A DNA stretch of 64,000 nucleotides from contig WGLS01000030.1 of NCBI GenBank assembly GCA_016125455.1, forward strand, positions 1 through 64,000, written 5' to 3'. The notes under the pieces were generated by a model, which made no database searches, was not told where the DNA came from, and saw nothing but the letters and a program-made list of their open reading frames with translations. The position numbers and the translations under genes were made by a program. Positions 25,522-47,883 of the stretch are shown here, piece by piece (position 1 is the stretch's first letter; each line of letters opens with the position of its first letter). Origin of the DNA: Alphaproteobacteria bacterium (GTDB lineage Bacteria > Pseudomonadota > Alphaproteobacteria > Caulobacterales > Parvularculaceae).

Positions 25522-27894
25522 TCATGCAGGCTCGTCCGCGAAACACGCGGCGTACTCCCGCTTGATGATATCCCAGTTGCCGGCATCGACGTCAGCCAGG
25601 CCGCCCGCGGCCTGTCGCTCCGCCGTCACCTGCGCCATGTTTTCGATATGTCGGCAGCTTGTCCGCTCGTCGCCGCGAACGCGATAGTGGGACGCCATGA
25701 AATAGAGGTGCACCCAGACCCGGCGCTGCTTGACGGCGTCCGCTGGCGAGGCTTCCGCTTCCGACTTGTACCAGTCCCAGGCGTCGAGCAGCAGGGCTTC
25801 GGCTTCCTCGAAACGTTCGAGGCTTGAGAGAGGCGCGGTCATTTCTCCCTTGATAATTCGCAAGGACAATGCGGCGTTCCGATCATTCGGATCCATTGTG
25901 ACAATGTCTTCGAGGATCGCTTCGGCCTGCCGGAAGGCGGTGACTGAGTCTTCGTGCTTTTCGTTGAGGTAGAGAGCGTTTGCATACCTCCGGTAGGCGC
26001 CGCCGCGTGCGCCGTTCAGCGCATTGTCGCCGCCGGATAATTCGTAGGCGCGCTCATGGTCCTCGAGCGCCGCGAGGTAAAGCGCCGGCGCCTCTGCGCG
26101 GGTCTCCTGGTCGTTGAGCAGCGACAGCGCAAGCCGCGTGCGGGCGTCGCCAAGAAGGGAATGGACGCTTGCGTCGTCCGGCGCGCGATCCCTTAGCGCC
26201 TCCCCATCCGCGATGACGGCTCGGGACATCGCCCGCGCCCTTTCCTGATCGTCCGCACGATAGGTCAGCGTCGCGGCTTCGGCGCGGGTCGACAACAACG
26301 CAAGCTGCAGGTCCGTGTCCTGGGGCGCGATGTCGAGACCGTTGCGAAGGTGCGCGGCAGACTGATCGAGATGGCGCGCCGCGAGGTTGTCGTCGGACCG
26401 CCGGTCGACGGCGATGCGCGCAAGATCATAGTGCGCGCGTCCAAGGCCGAGCAACGCCGCAGCGGTTGGCGGCGTCGCGGCGCGCTCATAAAGGGCGATC
26501 GCCTTTTCGAGACTGGCCGCAGCAGCCGCTGCGTCGCCGAGCGCCGCGCCATCGGGACTGCCGAGGATGCGGCCAAGCTCAGCGTATCCTTCGGCCGTTT
26601 CAAGAAGAAGGTCGGGCGCGGCGTCGGCGTCGTCGGCGAGACGATCCAGATAGGTCTGGGCGGCTTCGACGACGATGCGACGCGCCTGTGTCGACCCCGG
26701 GAGCGGGCTGACGGCGTCGTAGACATCGAAGATAACGGCGCGCGCGAGATTTCGCACGTCATTGTACCGCGCCGTCGCTTCTGCCTCGGCGCTTTCGGCG
26801 CGTACGAACAAAGCGGCGAAGACGATCGCGGCGGCCAAGACGCCGACGGCCGCCGCGGCCCCGGCCGCGACGGCGAATTTCCGCCTCAGGATGAATTTCG
26901 CCGCGACGTAGCCAAAGCCCCCCTGTCGCGCGACGACGGGCAATCCGGCGCGTGCGCGATCAAGATCCTCGATCAGGGCCCCGACCGAAGCGTATCGATC
27001 GCCGGGGGCATCCGCCGCCGCCTTCGCCGCGATCGCCGCAAGATCCGCATTCCGGGGCATGCCCTGCAGCAGGTCCGAAAGGACGCGCCCGAGCGCATAG
27101 ATGTCGCCGAGCGTTGTCGCGTCGTCCCCTTCGGCGCGCTCCGGCGGCGTATAGCCCTTCGTGGCGGTCCGCCGCGGCGCGTCTGCGTCGCGTCCCTCGC
27201 CGAGGGTTCGCGAGATGCCGAAGTCGATTACCTTGGCGCGGAGATCATCCGTCACAAGAATATTCATCGGCGTCAGGTCGCGGTGGACAACAAGATTCTG
27301 GTGCGCATAGGCAACCGCCGAGCATGCGTCGCCGAAGACGTCGAGCCTGCTTTCCATTGACCGGTCGCCGGCGGCAAGCCAGTCGCCGAGCGGTTCGCCG
27401 GGGACATGCTCCATGATGAGATAGGGCACGCCGTCATCGGTTTCGCCGCCGTCATAAAGCTGCGCGATCCCGGCGTGCTTCAGTTTGGCGAGGGTTTGGC
27501 GTTCCGTTCGCAGGCGTTCCGCCAGGCGCGTCCTGTTTCGCCCGCCGGTGACGAACTTGATCGCAACCTCATGATCGAAGTCGCCCGCGTCGCGGCGACC
27601 GAGATAGACCGCGCCCATGCCGCCGCGGCCGATCAGGCGCTCAAGTCGATAAGGGCCGACGCGATCCGGATGGGCCTCGACCGTCCGTCCGAACGCTTCG
27701 ACCGCGCCGCCGGTGATGGCCGCCACATCGGGACTGGCGTCCGCCCGCAACAGCGCGAGCGTGCGTTCACGCAACGCCGCGTCGTCGCCCGCCGCCCGCA
27801 AAATGAGCGCCTCGCGTTCGTTTGAAGGCGCATCAAACGCTTGTTCCAGCAGCGCGAGCGCAAGAGCCTCCAGTCCGTCAGAACCCCTCGCCAT
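25522..27894 (-). CDS. Receptor-type Ser/Thr protein kinase with an extracytoplasmic TPR-like domain
   Basis: 790 residues. Kinase domain about residues 80-315: glycine loop GRGGMGAVYLG, ATP-site Lys113 (VAIKF), catalytic loop HRDLTPMN (residues 204-211) and DFG at 224-226. The normally conserved loop Lys (HRDLKPxN) is Thr208. A membrane segment (341-363) separates it from a C-terminal region of about 420 residues with alternating Ala/Leu helices typical of TPR repeats. It overlaps an upstream ECF-like sigma factor by 17 bases, a recurrent pairing in which the kinase/TPR protein and the sigma factor work in one signalling path. Probably active, though the loop substitution leaves doubt. Confidence 0.9.
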   Translation of the reverse strand: MARGSDGLEALALALLEQAFDAPSNEREALILRAAGDDAALRERTLALLRADASPDVAAITGGAVEAFGRTVEAHPDRVGPYRLERLIGRGGMGAVYLGRRDAGDFDHEVAIKFVTGGRNRTRLAERLRTERQTLAKLKHAGIAQLYDGGETDDGVPYLIMEHVPGEPLGDWLAAGDRSMESRLDVFGDACSAVAYAHQNLVVHRDLTPMNILVTDDLRAKVIDFGISRTLGEGRDADAPRRTATKGYTPPERAEGDDATTLGDIYALGRVLSDLLQGMPRNADLAAIAAKAAADAPGDRYASVGALIEDLDRARAGLPVVARQGGFGYVAAKFILRRKFAVAAGAAAAVGVLAAAIVFAALFVRAESAEAEATARYNDVRNLARAVIFDVYDAVSPLPGSTQARRIVVEAAQTYLDRLADDADAAPDLLLETAEGYAELGRILGSPDGAALGDAAAAAASLEKAIALYERAATPPTAAALLGLGRAHYDLARIAVDRRSDDNLAARHLDQSAAHLRNGLDIAPQDTDLQLALLSTRAEAATLTYRADDQERARAMSRAVIADGEALRDRAPDDASVHSLLGDARTRLALSLLNDQETRAEAPALYLAALEDHERAYELSGGDNALNGARGGAYRRYANALYLNEKHEDSVTAFRQAEAILEDIVTMDPNDRNAALSLRIIKGEMTAPLSSLERFEEAEALLLDAWDWYKSEAEASPADAVKQRRVWVHLYFMASHYRVRGDERTSCRHIENMAQVTAERQAAGGLADVDAGNWDIIKREYAACFADEPA

Positions 27895-28477
27895 CTAGCG
27901 CCTCCTTTAGCCACGCCCGCGTCGCCCGCCATGAGCGCCTCACGGTCGCTTCGGACATGCCGAGCACCAGGCCGATCTCTTCGGAAGTCATGCCGCCATA
28001 GTACCGCATGGCAACAATCTCTGCACGCTGAGCATCTATTGCCGACAACCGGATGAGGGCAGTTTCCAGCGCCTGCGCGTCATAAGGCGCGCCATTGGGG
28101 CCGTTCGCGCCGTCCACGCCATCGGTCAAGGTGACGGTGATCTTGCGACGCTTGTCCGCGCCGCGCTTGCGGCCGGCGTCGACCAGCACCTGCCGCATCA
28201 CCCGTGCGGCGATCGCCAGGAAATGGGCGCGGTCGTTGGCGTCGACCGACCGACCGGCGAGAAGGCGGGCAACCGCCTCGTTGACGACGTCGCCGACGGA
28301 AACCGAGACGGGCCCGCCCTCTCGGCGTAAGAGCGAGCTTGCGATCCGCGACAGTTCAGCATGGGCGTCTTCATAGACGGCCGCCTGCGCCACGGCGTCG
28401 CCAGCGTTCGCCGCGCGCAACCGCAGGATGAATGCGCTGACCTCCTGGTTGCTGGATCCGCTTGGTTGATCGGTCAT
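27878..28477 (-). CDS. ECF-like sigma factor (TIGR02999 type)
   Basis: 199 residues. The sigma-2 region is VVNEAVARLLAGRSVDANDRAHFLAIAARVMRQ (about residues 60-95) and the sigma-4 helix-turn-helix is RLSAIDAQRAEIVAMRYYGGMTSEEIGLVLGMSEATVRRSW (about residues 143-185). This TIGR02999 subgroup commonly precedes Ser/Thr kinase/TPR genes and lacks a standard anti-sigma factor. The kinase gene starts inside its 3' end. The kinase may regulate the sigma factor or transmit its signal. Confidence 0.88.
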   Translation of the reverse strand: MTDQPSGSSNQEVSAFILRLRAANAGDAVAQAAVYEDAHAELSRIASSLLRREGGPVSVSVGDVVNEAVARLLAGRSVDANDRAHFLAIAARVMRQVLVDAGRKRGADKRRKITVTLTDGVDGANGPNGAPYDAQALETALIRLSAIDAQRAEIVAMRYYGGMTSEEIGLVLGMSEATVRRSWRATRAWLKEALDGEGF

Positions 28478-29067: not shown

Positions 29068-29760
29068 TCAGGCGGCTTTTTCTTCGGCCGGGTCGCGCAG
29101 CACATAGCCGCGGCCCCAGACCGTTTCGATATAGTGGTCGCCGCTGGTCGCCGCCGCGAGCTTCTTGCGCAGCTTGCAGATGAAGACGTCAATGATCTTC
29201 AGTTCCGGCTCGTCCATGCCGCCATAGAGGTGGTTGAGGAACATTTCCTTTGTCAGGGTCGTTCCCTTGCGGAGCGAAAGCAGCTCCAGCATCTGATATT
29301 CCTTGCCCGTCAGGTGCACGCGCTGGCCCGAGACTTCGACCGTTTTCGCATCAAGATTGACGATCAGCGAGCCGGTCGTGATGACCGACTGCGAATGGCC
29401 CTTCGAGCGGCGGACGATCGCGTGGATGCGGGCGACAAGCTCATCCTTGTGGAACGGCTTCGTCATGTAGTCGTCGGCGCCAAAGCCAAGGCCGCGGACT
29501 TTCGTTTCAATATCGCCCTGTCCGGTAAGGATCAGGATCGGCGTATTCACCTTTGACACCCGCAAGGACTTCAACACGTCGAAGCCCGTCATGTCCGGGA
29601 GGTTAAGGTCGAGAAGGATAATGTCGTAGTCATAGACCTTGCCGAGGTCGACGCCTTCTTCGCCAAGATCGGTGGTGTATACGTTGAACCCGTCCGATTT
29701 CAGCATGAGTTCAATGCTCTGGGCGGTCGCGCCGTCGTCCTCAATCAGCAAAACCCGCAT
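29068..29760 (-). CDS. ctrA: Cell-cycle master response regulator CtrA
   Basis: 230 residues from the ATG at 29760 (MRVLLIEDD); the track's leader is not part of the protein. OmpR-type architecture. Receiver domain about residues 1-115, with the acidic pocket EDD, phosphoacceptor Asp51 in ILLDLNLPD and KPF switch Lys. Winged-helix domain to residue 220 ([50 protein letters not shown]). The sequence is of the highly conserved CtrA type that binds TTAA-N7-TTAA. It is phosphorylated through CckA-ChpT in Caulobacter; those genes are not in the window. It is divergent from mraZ across 528 bases. Confidence 0.97.
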
Positions 29761-29821
29761 GGTTTCCGGTCTCCTTTTCGGGGCCGCCGCGTTCCCACGC
29801 GAGGGCATTCGATCAATTCCC

Positions 29822-29836
29822 TTAAGCAAGCTTTAG
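29822..29836. promoter_or_regulatory. CtrA-like box upstream of ctrA
   Basis: TTAA-GCAAGCT-TTAG matches the CtrA consensus TTAA-N7-TTAA in 7 of 8 positions and ends about 62 bases before the ctrA ATG, a position that would suit autoregulation, as known for ctrA in Caulobacter. A further TTAA-N5-TTAA pair (29858-29870) has the wrong spacing and is less convincing. Confidence 0.45.
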
Positions 29837-29890
29837 GCGGATTTACTTTCATAAAGGTTAACCGCGTTAATGGCCCTGAACGGATATTCA

Positions 29891-29895
29891 GAGTC
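29891..29895. promoter_or_regulatory. GANTC site (GAGTC) upstream of ctrA
   Basis: One of the two CcrM-type methylation targets in the ctrA-mraZ control region; the other is GATTC at 29986-29990. In Caulobacter a GANTC site in the ctrA promoter links expression to passage of the replication fork. Methylation at this particular site is inference. Confidence 0.45.
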
Positions 29896-30075
29896 CGGAC
29901 GGGCGCGCGGCGGCGTTTCCTGCCTCAGGTCCTGCATCGACTGATTTGCAGCGAGCCGAAACCCCTTCGACCCACCGAATTAACCGATTCGCAACCCGCC
30001 GGTCGGAGCCTGCCGAGAGGCAGTCGTTGCGCGACCGAAAGCGAACCGTGATTTTATCCGATGTTTCGTTTTTGT

Positions 30076-30141
30076 TCCCAAACTAACTGTTTGACGCCCC
30101 ATTTGTTCCCGTGATATCCCAATAAATGTATTAATGTCCCG
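30076..30141 (-). promoter_or_regulatory. MraZ box array upstream of mraZ
   Basis: On the minus strand, three pentamers TGGGA, CGGGA and TGGGG stand exactly 10 bases apart (plus coordinates 30117-30121, 30107-30111, 30097-30101), the arrangement known for MraZ operators. Two more copies lie one skipped turn to each side (TCCCG at 30137 and TCCCA at 30076 on the plus strand). MraZ normally represses its own dcw operon by binding such repeats, so autorepression is expected here. Confidence 0.75.
30091..30119 (+). promoter_or_regulatory. Candidate promoter of the mraZ/dcw operon
   Basis: TTGACG (30091-30096) and ATATCC (30114-30119) are separated by 17 bases. The -35 is good; the -10 is weak. 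The element coincides with the core MraZ boxes, which would explain repression by occlusion. Confidence 0.35.
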
Positions 30142-30288
30142 GTAAGGATTTGCGCGCGGGCGCTGGCGGCGAAGGTCGTCGGCGCCGGTCGAAAACCAGT
30201 TGGGCGCGGGTGGGCCGCCAGGGCCGGGGCGCATGAAACTTCCGGCGTCGTCGCGAGAACGCGTCGATCAAGGGGAGAGGCGAATTGC

Positions 30289-30822
30289 ATGTTGGCATCG
30301 GCGCCCCGTTCGGGCGCGTCCTCGTTTCTTGGGACGCACACGAACAAGATCGACGCGAAGGGTCGCGTTCAGGCGCCTGCGGATTTTCGCCGTGCGCTGG
30401 ATTTGGCGTCGTTCAATGGTTTTTTCTGCTTTCCGAACCTCGATACGCGCCGGCTCGATTGCGGCGGCGCGGACTTTGTGGAGGACCTGAAGGCGTTAAT
30501 TGCGACGCTCGATCCCTATTCACAGGCTCGCGAAGACCTCGAAATCGCCATGCTCGGCGAGATACAGCCAATTCCATTCGACCAGAACGGCCGTTTCATC
30601 CTGACAAAGAGATTGCGCGACCATCTTGGCGAGGGCGATCAGGTGCGTTTCGTCGGTCGGGGCGACACTTTCCAGATCTGGCCGACTGCCGGCGCCGAGG
30701 AGGCCGTCAATGCTCACAGGGAAAGGGCTCGCGCGGCCTTGAGGCGGTTGCGGCATCCCGGCGCGCGCGCGATTCCTTCGCCGGAGGACGCGGCTGCGCC
30801 AAGCGGCGGGGACGGTTCGTGA
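30289..30822 (+). CDS. mraZ: Transcriptional regulator MraZ
   Basis: 177 residues. Two SpoVT/AbrB-type half-domains: FLGTHTNKIDAKGRVQAPADFR (about residues 13-35) and FDQNGRFILTKRLRDHL (about residues 97-113). It forms a ring that binds the 10-bp-spaced TGGGN repeats found 150 bases upstream and represses the dcw operon. GGGGAGAG lies 8-15 bases before the ATG. The C-terminal tail is longer and less conserved than in E. coli. Its stop overlaps the rsmH start (GTGA). Confidence 0.95.
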   Translation: MLASAPRSGASSFLGTHTNKIDAKGRVQAPADFRRALDLASFNGFFCFPNLDTRRLDCGGADFVEDLKALIATLDPYSQAREDLEIAMLGEIQPIPFDQNGRFILTKRLRDHLGEGDQVRFVGRGDTFQIWPTAGAEEAVNAHRERARAALRRLRHPGARAIPSPEDAAAPSGGDGS

Positions 30823-47592: not shown

Positions 47593-47883
47593 TTTCGCGC
47601 CGGCCGCAAGGACGAATTCATCAATAAATCGTCCGCATTCGGCGCCGCAGGGCATTTCCTCCGGATTACGCGTATTGATTTGAATTGCGAACACCTCTGG
47701 ATTGGCCGCGTTAAGGATTTGGTAAGGGTTCTGAACGAAGTTTTAACCCTGCCCATGAACGCGCGGCGTACCGCGTCATAAGTATCGCGGCGCAACGACG
47801 GGTGGTCGCCCGGGGCGACTGCGTGAGGGGGCGGGAAAATTGATCAAGCCCGGCGATCGGAAGTGCAATCGGAGCAGCGACAC
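47593..47883. other. Intergenic region upstream of ftsZ
   Basis: 291 bases without a gene; the largest gap inside the dcw cluster. A/T-rich between about 47690 and 47760, with a CtrA-like box at 47711. It probably holds a dedicated ftsZ promoter, as found in other alphaproteobacteria. Confidence 0.5.
47711..47725. promoter_or_regulatory. CtrA-like box upstream of ftsZ
   Basis: TTAA-GGATTTG-GTAA matches TTAA-N7-TTAA in 7 of 8 positions and lies about 160 bases before the ftsZ ATG. CtrA is known to repress ftsZ in Caulobacter. Control here is inference. Confidence 0.4.

Follow-up and report, generated by a model that had tools for sequence, protein, structure and literature searches.

The gene for CtrA, the master regulator of the cell cycle, lies in the DNA analysed here (a stretch of 64,000 nucleotides, below called the window) directly beside mraZ, the first gene of the dcw operon, and the two are transcribed away from each other. 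This raises the question of whether the DNA between them is a shared control region which evolved to couple the cell-cycle clock to septum synthesis, as an earlier note on the sequence had proposed, or whether two promoters with separate histories have simply been brought together. A search of a literature collection found no paper on ctrA-mraZ adjacency. On the comparative evidence presented below, the second answer is the probable one: two old, self-contained promoter modules would have been made neighbours by deletion, rather than having evolved as a joint switch.

The locus

The window's ctrA (29068-29760, minus strand) encodes a response regulator of 230 residues in which a receiver and a winged-helix domain are recognised (Pfam Response_reg and Trans_reg_C). 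The protein has one clear best match per genome and high identity to named alphaproteobacterial CtrA proteins, the nearest of which, at 94%, is from a Parvularculaceae MAG, so that the window's family is probably Parvularculaceae. Orthologues are 93-99% identical within the family, and 96-99% where the neighbourhood is the same. On the other side, mraZ (30289-30822, plus strand; 177 residues; Pfam MraZ) has a match in 58 of 62 family genomes and is followed 3' by the dcw genes in order to ftsA and ftsZ and then by an LpxC-like gene, the later genes having been recognised from their translations. A probable ribosome-binding site for mraZ, GGGGAGAGG, is seen in the sequence at 30272-30280 on the plus strand.

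The gap between the two genes, 29761-30288, measures 528 bp. All the elements previously claimed for it are present, namely divergent genes with a CtrA-like box, two GANTC sites and an MraZ-box array. A sigma-70 consensus scan gave no promoter match and a terminator scan gave terminators at chance level, while rnpB and other Rfam families are absent from both gap and window. Nor did tblastn detect remnants of the flagellar genes fliI or fliJ (see below) in the 528 bp at E-values below 0.1. Downstream of ctrA, at 25522-28477, the window carries genes for an ECF sigma factor and a large Ser/Thr protein kinase, as does its relative G002.

Phyletic distribution of the ctrA-mraZ order

The positions of ctrA and mraZ were determined in 61 relatives, in 62 family genomes and in a sample of 115 genomes of the class, 73 of them with a close ctrA. 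A survey of named ctrA loci, made with CtrA, covered 80 loci with up to 6 kb of upstream flank. Within the family, four genera (g1, g2, g5 and g6) have ctrA and mraZ as divergent neighbours. The two genes share a contig in 29 genomes of this clade, and five more (G011, G033, G071, G072 and G074) can be added through overlapping contig ends or a ctrA start visible beyond mraZ. The linkage is thus retained in 34 of the 34 clade genomes whose assembly permits the test; in the remainder either the contig ends there or there is no full ctrA match. The other, downstream, flank of ctrA is not the same in g2, g5 and g1/g6. In several g2 assemblies (L173, L174, L177 and L178) the contig ends no more than 100 bp upstream of ctrA, at a point where two contigs overlap.

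Outside the clade the picture is quite different. Linkage is absent from genera g3 and g7 and from 24 genomes of other families of the order, mraZ appears in none of the 80 named ctrA loci within the flank of up to 6 kb, and no sampled genome of the class has the divergent pair. The Caulobacter, Phenylobacterium and Brevundimonas loci in the survey, among which C. crescentus is not included, have no mraZ within 4.5-6 kb. The gene order is thus unusual, and the arrangement is both real and rare; the earlier note was right that it departs from Caulobacter-type loci. The chance that it is a product of assembly or annotation is negligible: contigs of several relatives do end just upstream of ctrA, but those ends overlap contigs from the mraZ side, G029 carries the linkage on a single contig and three members of the window's genus agree, so that independent assemblies refute an artefact.

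A separate linkage was seen in a genome from another family of the class (G142, locus L221). Here fliI, ctrA, a space of about one gene's length and mraZ follow each other, with ctrA and mraZ in tandem and ctrA pointing towards mraZ, an independent case.

Origin of the arrangement

Across the Alphaproteobacteria the usual divergent partner of ctrA is the flagellar gene fliI. About 29 of the 80 named loci, from Rhizobiales and Caulobacterales-type bacteria, have it upstream of ctrA and divergent to it, mostly at a distance of 243-536 bp, and the same pairing is found in several families of the order. Elsewhere in the order, many genomes have rnpB directly 5' of mraZ. In g2 the order is rnpB, ctrA, mraZ; in the window's genome rnpB is on another contig.

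The clade itself displays what once lay between the two genes. Its gaps range from 0.5 to 3.2 kb (the longest in G021). Both flagellar genes are present in gaps of about 2.3 kb, fliJ alone in gaps of about 1.05-1.2 kb and neither in gaps of 528-787 bp; FliJ reaches the Pfam cut-off in G007. Taken with the ctrA-fliI and rnpB-mraZ orders elsewhere and with the order in g2, this gives as the simplest history a single joining followed by flagellar losses. A ctrA-fliI-fliJ block would have arrived upstream of mraZ once, in the ancestor of the clade, in the place usually held by rnpB. Thereafter came repeated losses of fliI and fliJ, and in the window's genus no gene is left in the gap. Counting losses only, on a CtrA+MraZ+RsmH tree, yields about eight for fliI and about four for fliJ. 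The window's genus lacks both genes beside ctrA, and the order of the two losses is not visible within it. On this history it is the disappearance of the intervening fliI and fliJ that would have made ctrA abut the dcw operon.

Nine genomes of the 61-genome set (G000, G001, G002, G006, G014, G023, G025, G029 and G036) have no fliI linked to ctrA, and all nine carry another FliI at 44-49% identity. In the window's genome this second FliI is part of another, self-contained flagellar cluster (G000:C19, L179) with FliF, an FlgF/G-type rod protein, FliK and flagellin. In several independent lineages fliI has gone and a lone fliJ-like gene persists beside ctrA (L034, L039, L041, L043, L044, L163, L164, L165, L168, L175, L176 and L227, with that of L224 upstream of mraZ).

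Loss of the flagellar genes seems to have left its mark on the DNA upstream of ctrA. A CtrA box of the form TTAA-N7-TAAA occurs at -242 to -269 from ctrA, beside a GAATC and near the start of fliI. Of 13 genomes with fliI 12 retain it, as do 6 of 8 with fliJ only and just 1 of 6 with neither (neither versus the rest, Fisher p 0.004, uncorrected for relatedness). This distribution is consistent with a promoter element that served the flagellar operon and decays in its absence. Divergent regions of the ancestral ctrA-fliI kind are known from Rhodobacter sphaeroides, where fliI2p-flgB2p and fliL2p-fliF2p are CtrA-dependent and are likewise short regions with CtrA sites (PMC6180460). The present gap differs from them in having lost its flagellar half, so that ctrA is now followed on that side by a division operon without a conserved CtrA site of its own.

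The ctrA side of the gap

Family comparison identified on this side a conserved core, GTTAACCTTTATGAAAG (29846-29862, minus strand), which has a putative CtrA half site where the -35 would be and looks like a CtrA-dependent P2 promoter of ctrA. With the pattern GTTAAC...TGAAAG it lies at -94 to -108 from the ctrA start (-137 in G063) in all 27 family genomes compared, whatever the divergent neighbour. At this position only the GTTAAC half site is conserved and there is no full CtrA box. The putative -10 of the same promoter, CCTAAAGC (29830-29837, minus strand), is proposed from its spacing and from partial conservation in the alignment.

Overlapping this putative -10 is the best CtrA-like box in the gap, TTAAGCAAGCTTTAG (29822-29836), which reads CTAA-N7-TTAA towards ctrA, one mismatch from TTAA-N7-TTAA. 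All three members of the genus have it, at -75 to -79, and no other family genome examined has it at that position. The genus has lost the TTAA-N7-TAAA box of its relatives and has its own box at 29822 instead. CtrA-like matches are above chance in the window, with six in the whole 64 kb against 1.9 expected, and two of the six fall inside the 528 bp; the perfect TTAA-N7-TTAAC is absent.

GANTC sites upstream of ctrA are a general feature of the Caulobacterales (PMC8116508). One of the two in the gap, at 29986-29990 (GAATC towards ctrA), is a putative P1 methylation site which aligns in the genus and in many relatives, GAATC being found some 210-250 bp before ctrA in many of them. The second, GAGTC at 29891-29895, is not conserved there in G001 or G002. 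Two sites compare with 2.5 expected from composition, so that the number of GANTC sites is at chance level and was set aside as evidence, which leaves the conserved position at 29986.

The layout resembles the P1/P2 arrangement of ctrA in Caulobacter crescentus (PMC8116508), with a putative CtrA half site at the proximal -35 and a GANTC further upstream, in the model's order; as in a Caulobacter-type distal promoter, the GANTC at 29986 is conserved in the genus. It differs in having mraZ as the divergent neighbour, in the loss by the genus of the upstream CtrA box and in the box over the putative -10. Judged by this likeness, leftward transcription of ctrA would start, as it does in Caulobacter, at a P2 activated by CtrA and at a P1 that depends on GANTC.

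A dependence on methylation would open another route by which ctrA and the dcw operon might be held together, namely selection for chromosome position or replication timing, in which the moment of GANTC hemimethylation matters and shared binding sites do not. In Caulobacter the timing of P1 does depend on where ctrA lies on the chromosome, and throughout the Caulobacterales the gene stays in the origin-nearer half (PMC8116508); the linkage is kept throughout the clade and has a second, independent counterpart in the tandem arrangement of G142. Nevertheless, several g2 genomes lack a GANTC near ctrA and ordinary inheritance of synteny would explain the retention too, which leaves selection on timing a very unlikely explanation.

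The mraZ side of the gap

A different set of elements characterises the other end of the gap. The putative -35 of mraZ, TTGACG (30091-30096, plus strand), is followed directly by an array of MraZ boxes at 30097-30121 (minus strand), TGGGA-N5-CGGGA-N5-TGGGG with a 10-bp period, or CCCCA-N5-TCCCG-N5-TCCCA on the plus strand. The probability of such an array in 528 bp is about 0.002, and it is the only triple of this kind in the window, 0.25 being expected over 64 kb. Many family genomes likewise have TTTGAC followed by a CCC array before mraZ, and in other families at least two MraZ boxes are found shortly upstream of mraZ in 18 of 20 genomes, many with rnpB upstream. The array is therefore retained order-wide, whether rnpB or ctrA lies upstream. 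The MraZ-box array of the earlier note, which gave no coordinates for it, is thus real, and 30097-30121 is the conserved copy. A pair of TGGGC motifs at 30201-30215 was rejected as an MraZ array since it is not conserved.

Eraso et al. are said to have found in 2014 that the Escherichia coli mraZ promoter is autoregulated by MraZ via TGGGN repeats. The window shares with E. coli the 10-bp-spaced GGG repeats at the mraZ promoter, three here, as in an MraZ-regulated promoter, and differs in the variant YGGGN and in the placing of the putative array directly behind a TTGAC -35. The related families with rnpB upstream of mraZ have the same kind of promoter array and differ in that rnpB is on another contig here. 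By analogy, mraZ and the dcw operon would be transcribed rightwards from the TTGACG promoter, with MraZ repressing through the array just behind it.

A weak CtrA-like match in the mraZ leader, TTAATGTCCCGGTAA (30131-30145, plus strand; one mismatch), is not conserved in G001 or G002, and family comparison yields no conserved CtrA box on the mraZ side. A perfect TTAA-N7-TTAA is present there in G006 and G067.

A LexA box upstream of mraZ

Comparison of the mraZ upstream regions also brought to light a motif matching GTTC-N7-GTTC, the published LexA motif of Caulobacter (PMC12700426). Of 27 clade genomes, 14, all of them g2, have a perfect copy 160-203 bp before mraZ, and 6 of 6 genomes of family f3 and two of family f5 have one 147-200 bp before it. 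On one strand, 0.0035 copies per 300 bp are the background. The N7 is not the same in the different families. Reading of the sequence adds G010 and G020, and examples among relatives are L039, L041, L043, L182, L185, L186, L188, L190, L191, L194 and L197. The window has only a degenerate box, GTTT-N7-GTTC (30063-30077, plus strand; one mismatch), and no perfect box is found upstream of mraZ in G001 and G002. A LexA site at an mraZ gene has been reported from gut metagenomes with Bacillus LexA (PMC3998124). The distribution suggests SOS control of the dcw operon in the order, lost or decayed in the window's genus.

Shared or separate control

Can the two sides nevertheless act together? No site was found that is both conserved with and placed to serve both genes; the P2-like core of ctrA and the promoter and array of mraZ are conserved separately. 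Such independent conservation, the variation in gap length across the clade and the fact that the partner of the ctrA promoter was fliI argue against a shared control region evolved to link clock and septum. Two further points tell against it: the only CtrA box conserved genus-wide, at 29822, belongs to the P2 region of ctrA and stands some 255 bp away from the mraZ promoter, and the genus has lost the CtrA box that lay close to the former divergent gene.

A functional joint switch confined to the window's genus would have the CtrA side and the MraZ/RNA polymerase side interact, by roadblock, looping or supercoiling, and so couple the clock to the dcw operon. Its attractions are that the putative P1 GANTC (29986) is only about 100 bp from the mraZ -35 (30091), that two CtrA-like matches fall in the gap, one of them the genus-specific box found in 3 of 3 genomes, and that the linkage is never broken in the 34 testable genomes. 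It is, however, unlikely, given that the genus-specific box sits over the putative ctrA -10, some 255 bp away from the mraZ promoter, that the mraZ-side match is not conserved and the box beside the former divergent gene is gone, and that 1-3 kb separate the modules in most clade members.

Retention of the linkage in every testable genome, despite a changing other flank of ctrA, is compatible with selection and also with plain inheritance. It is quite unlikely that selection has held ctrA and the dcw operon together and that, after loss of fliI and fliJ, the promoters became a joint switch, mere deletion having given CtrA a division output in exchange for a flagellar one.

Classical control of septum genes by CtrA may instead be exerted at ftsZ, 17 kb downstream, and not at the ctrA-mraZ gap. 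The gap between ftsA and ftsZ contains two CtrA-like sites, TTAAGGATTTGGTAA and TGAACGAAGTTTTAA (47711-47746, plus strand), 21 bp apart and with one mismatch each, in line with the control by CtrA reported for ftsZ in Caulobacter and for ftsAKQZ in Hyphomonas (PMC7200025).

Implications

With two self-contained modules as the preferred reading, each side of the gap would be mainly self-controlled, ctrA by CtrA and methylation and the dcw operon by MraZ. The clade then provides a natural series, its steps still to be seen in living relatives, along which a cell-cycle master regulator exchanges flagellar genes for division genes as its divergent partner. The series lends itself to testing whether promoters become coupled when a deletion brings them together, and suggests that an odd neighbourhood of two famous genes can arise without new regulation.
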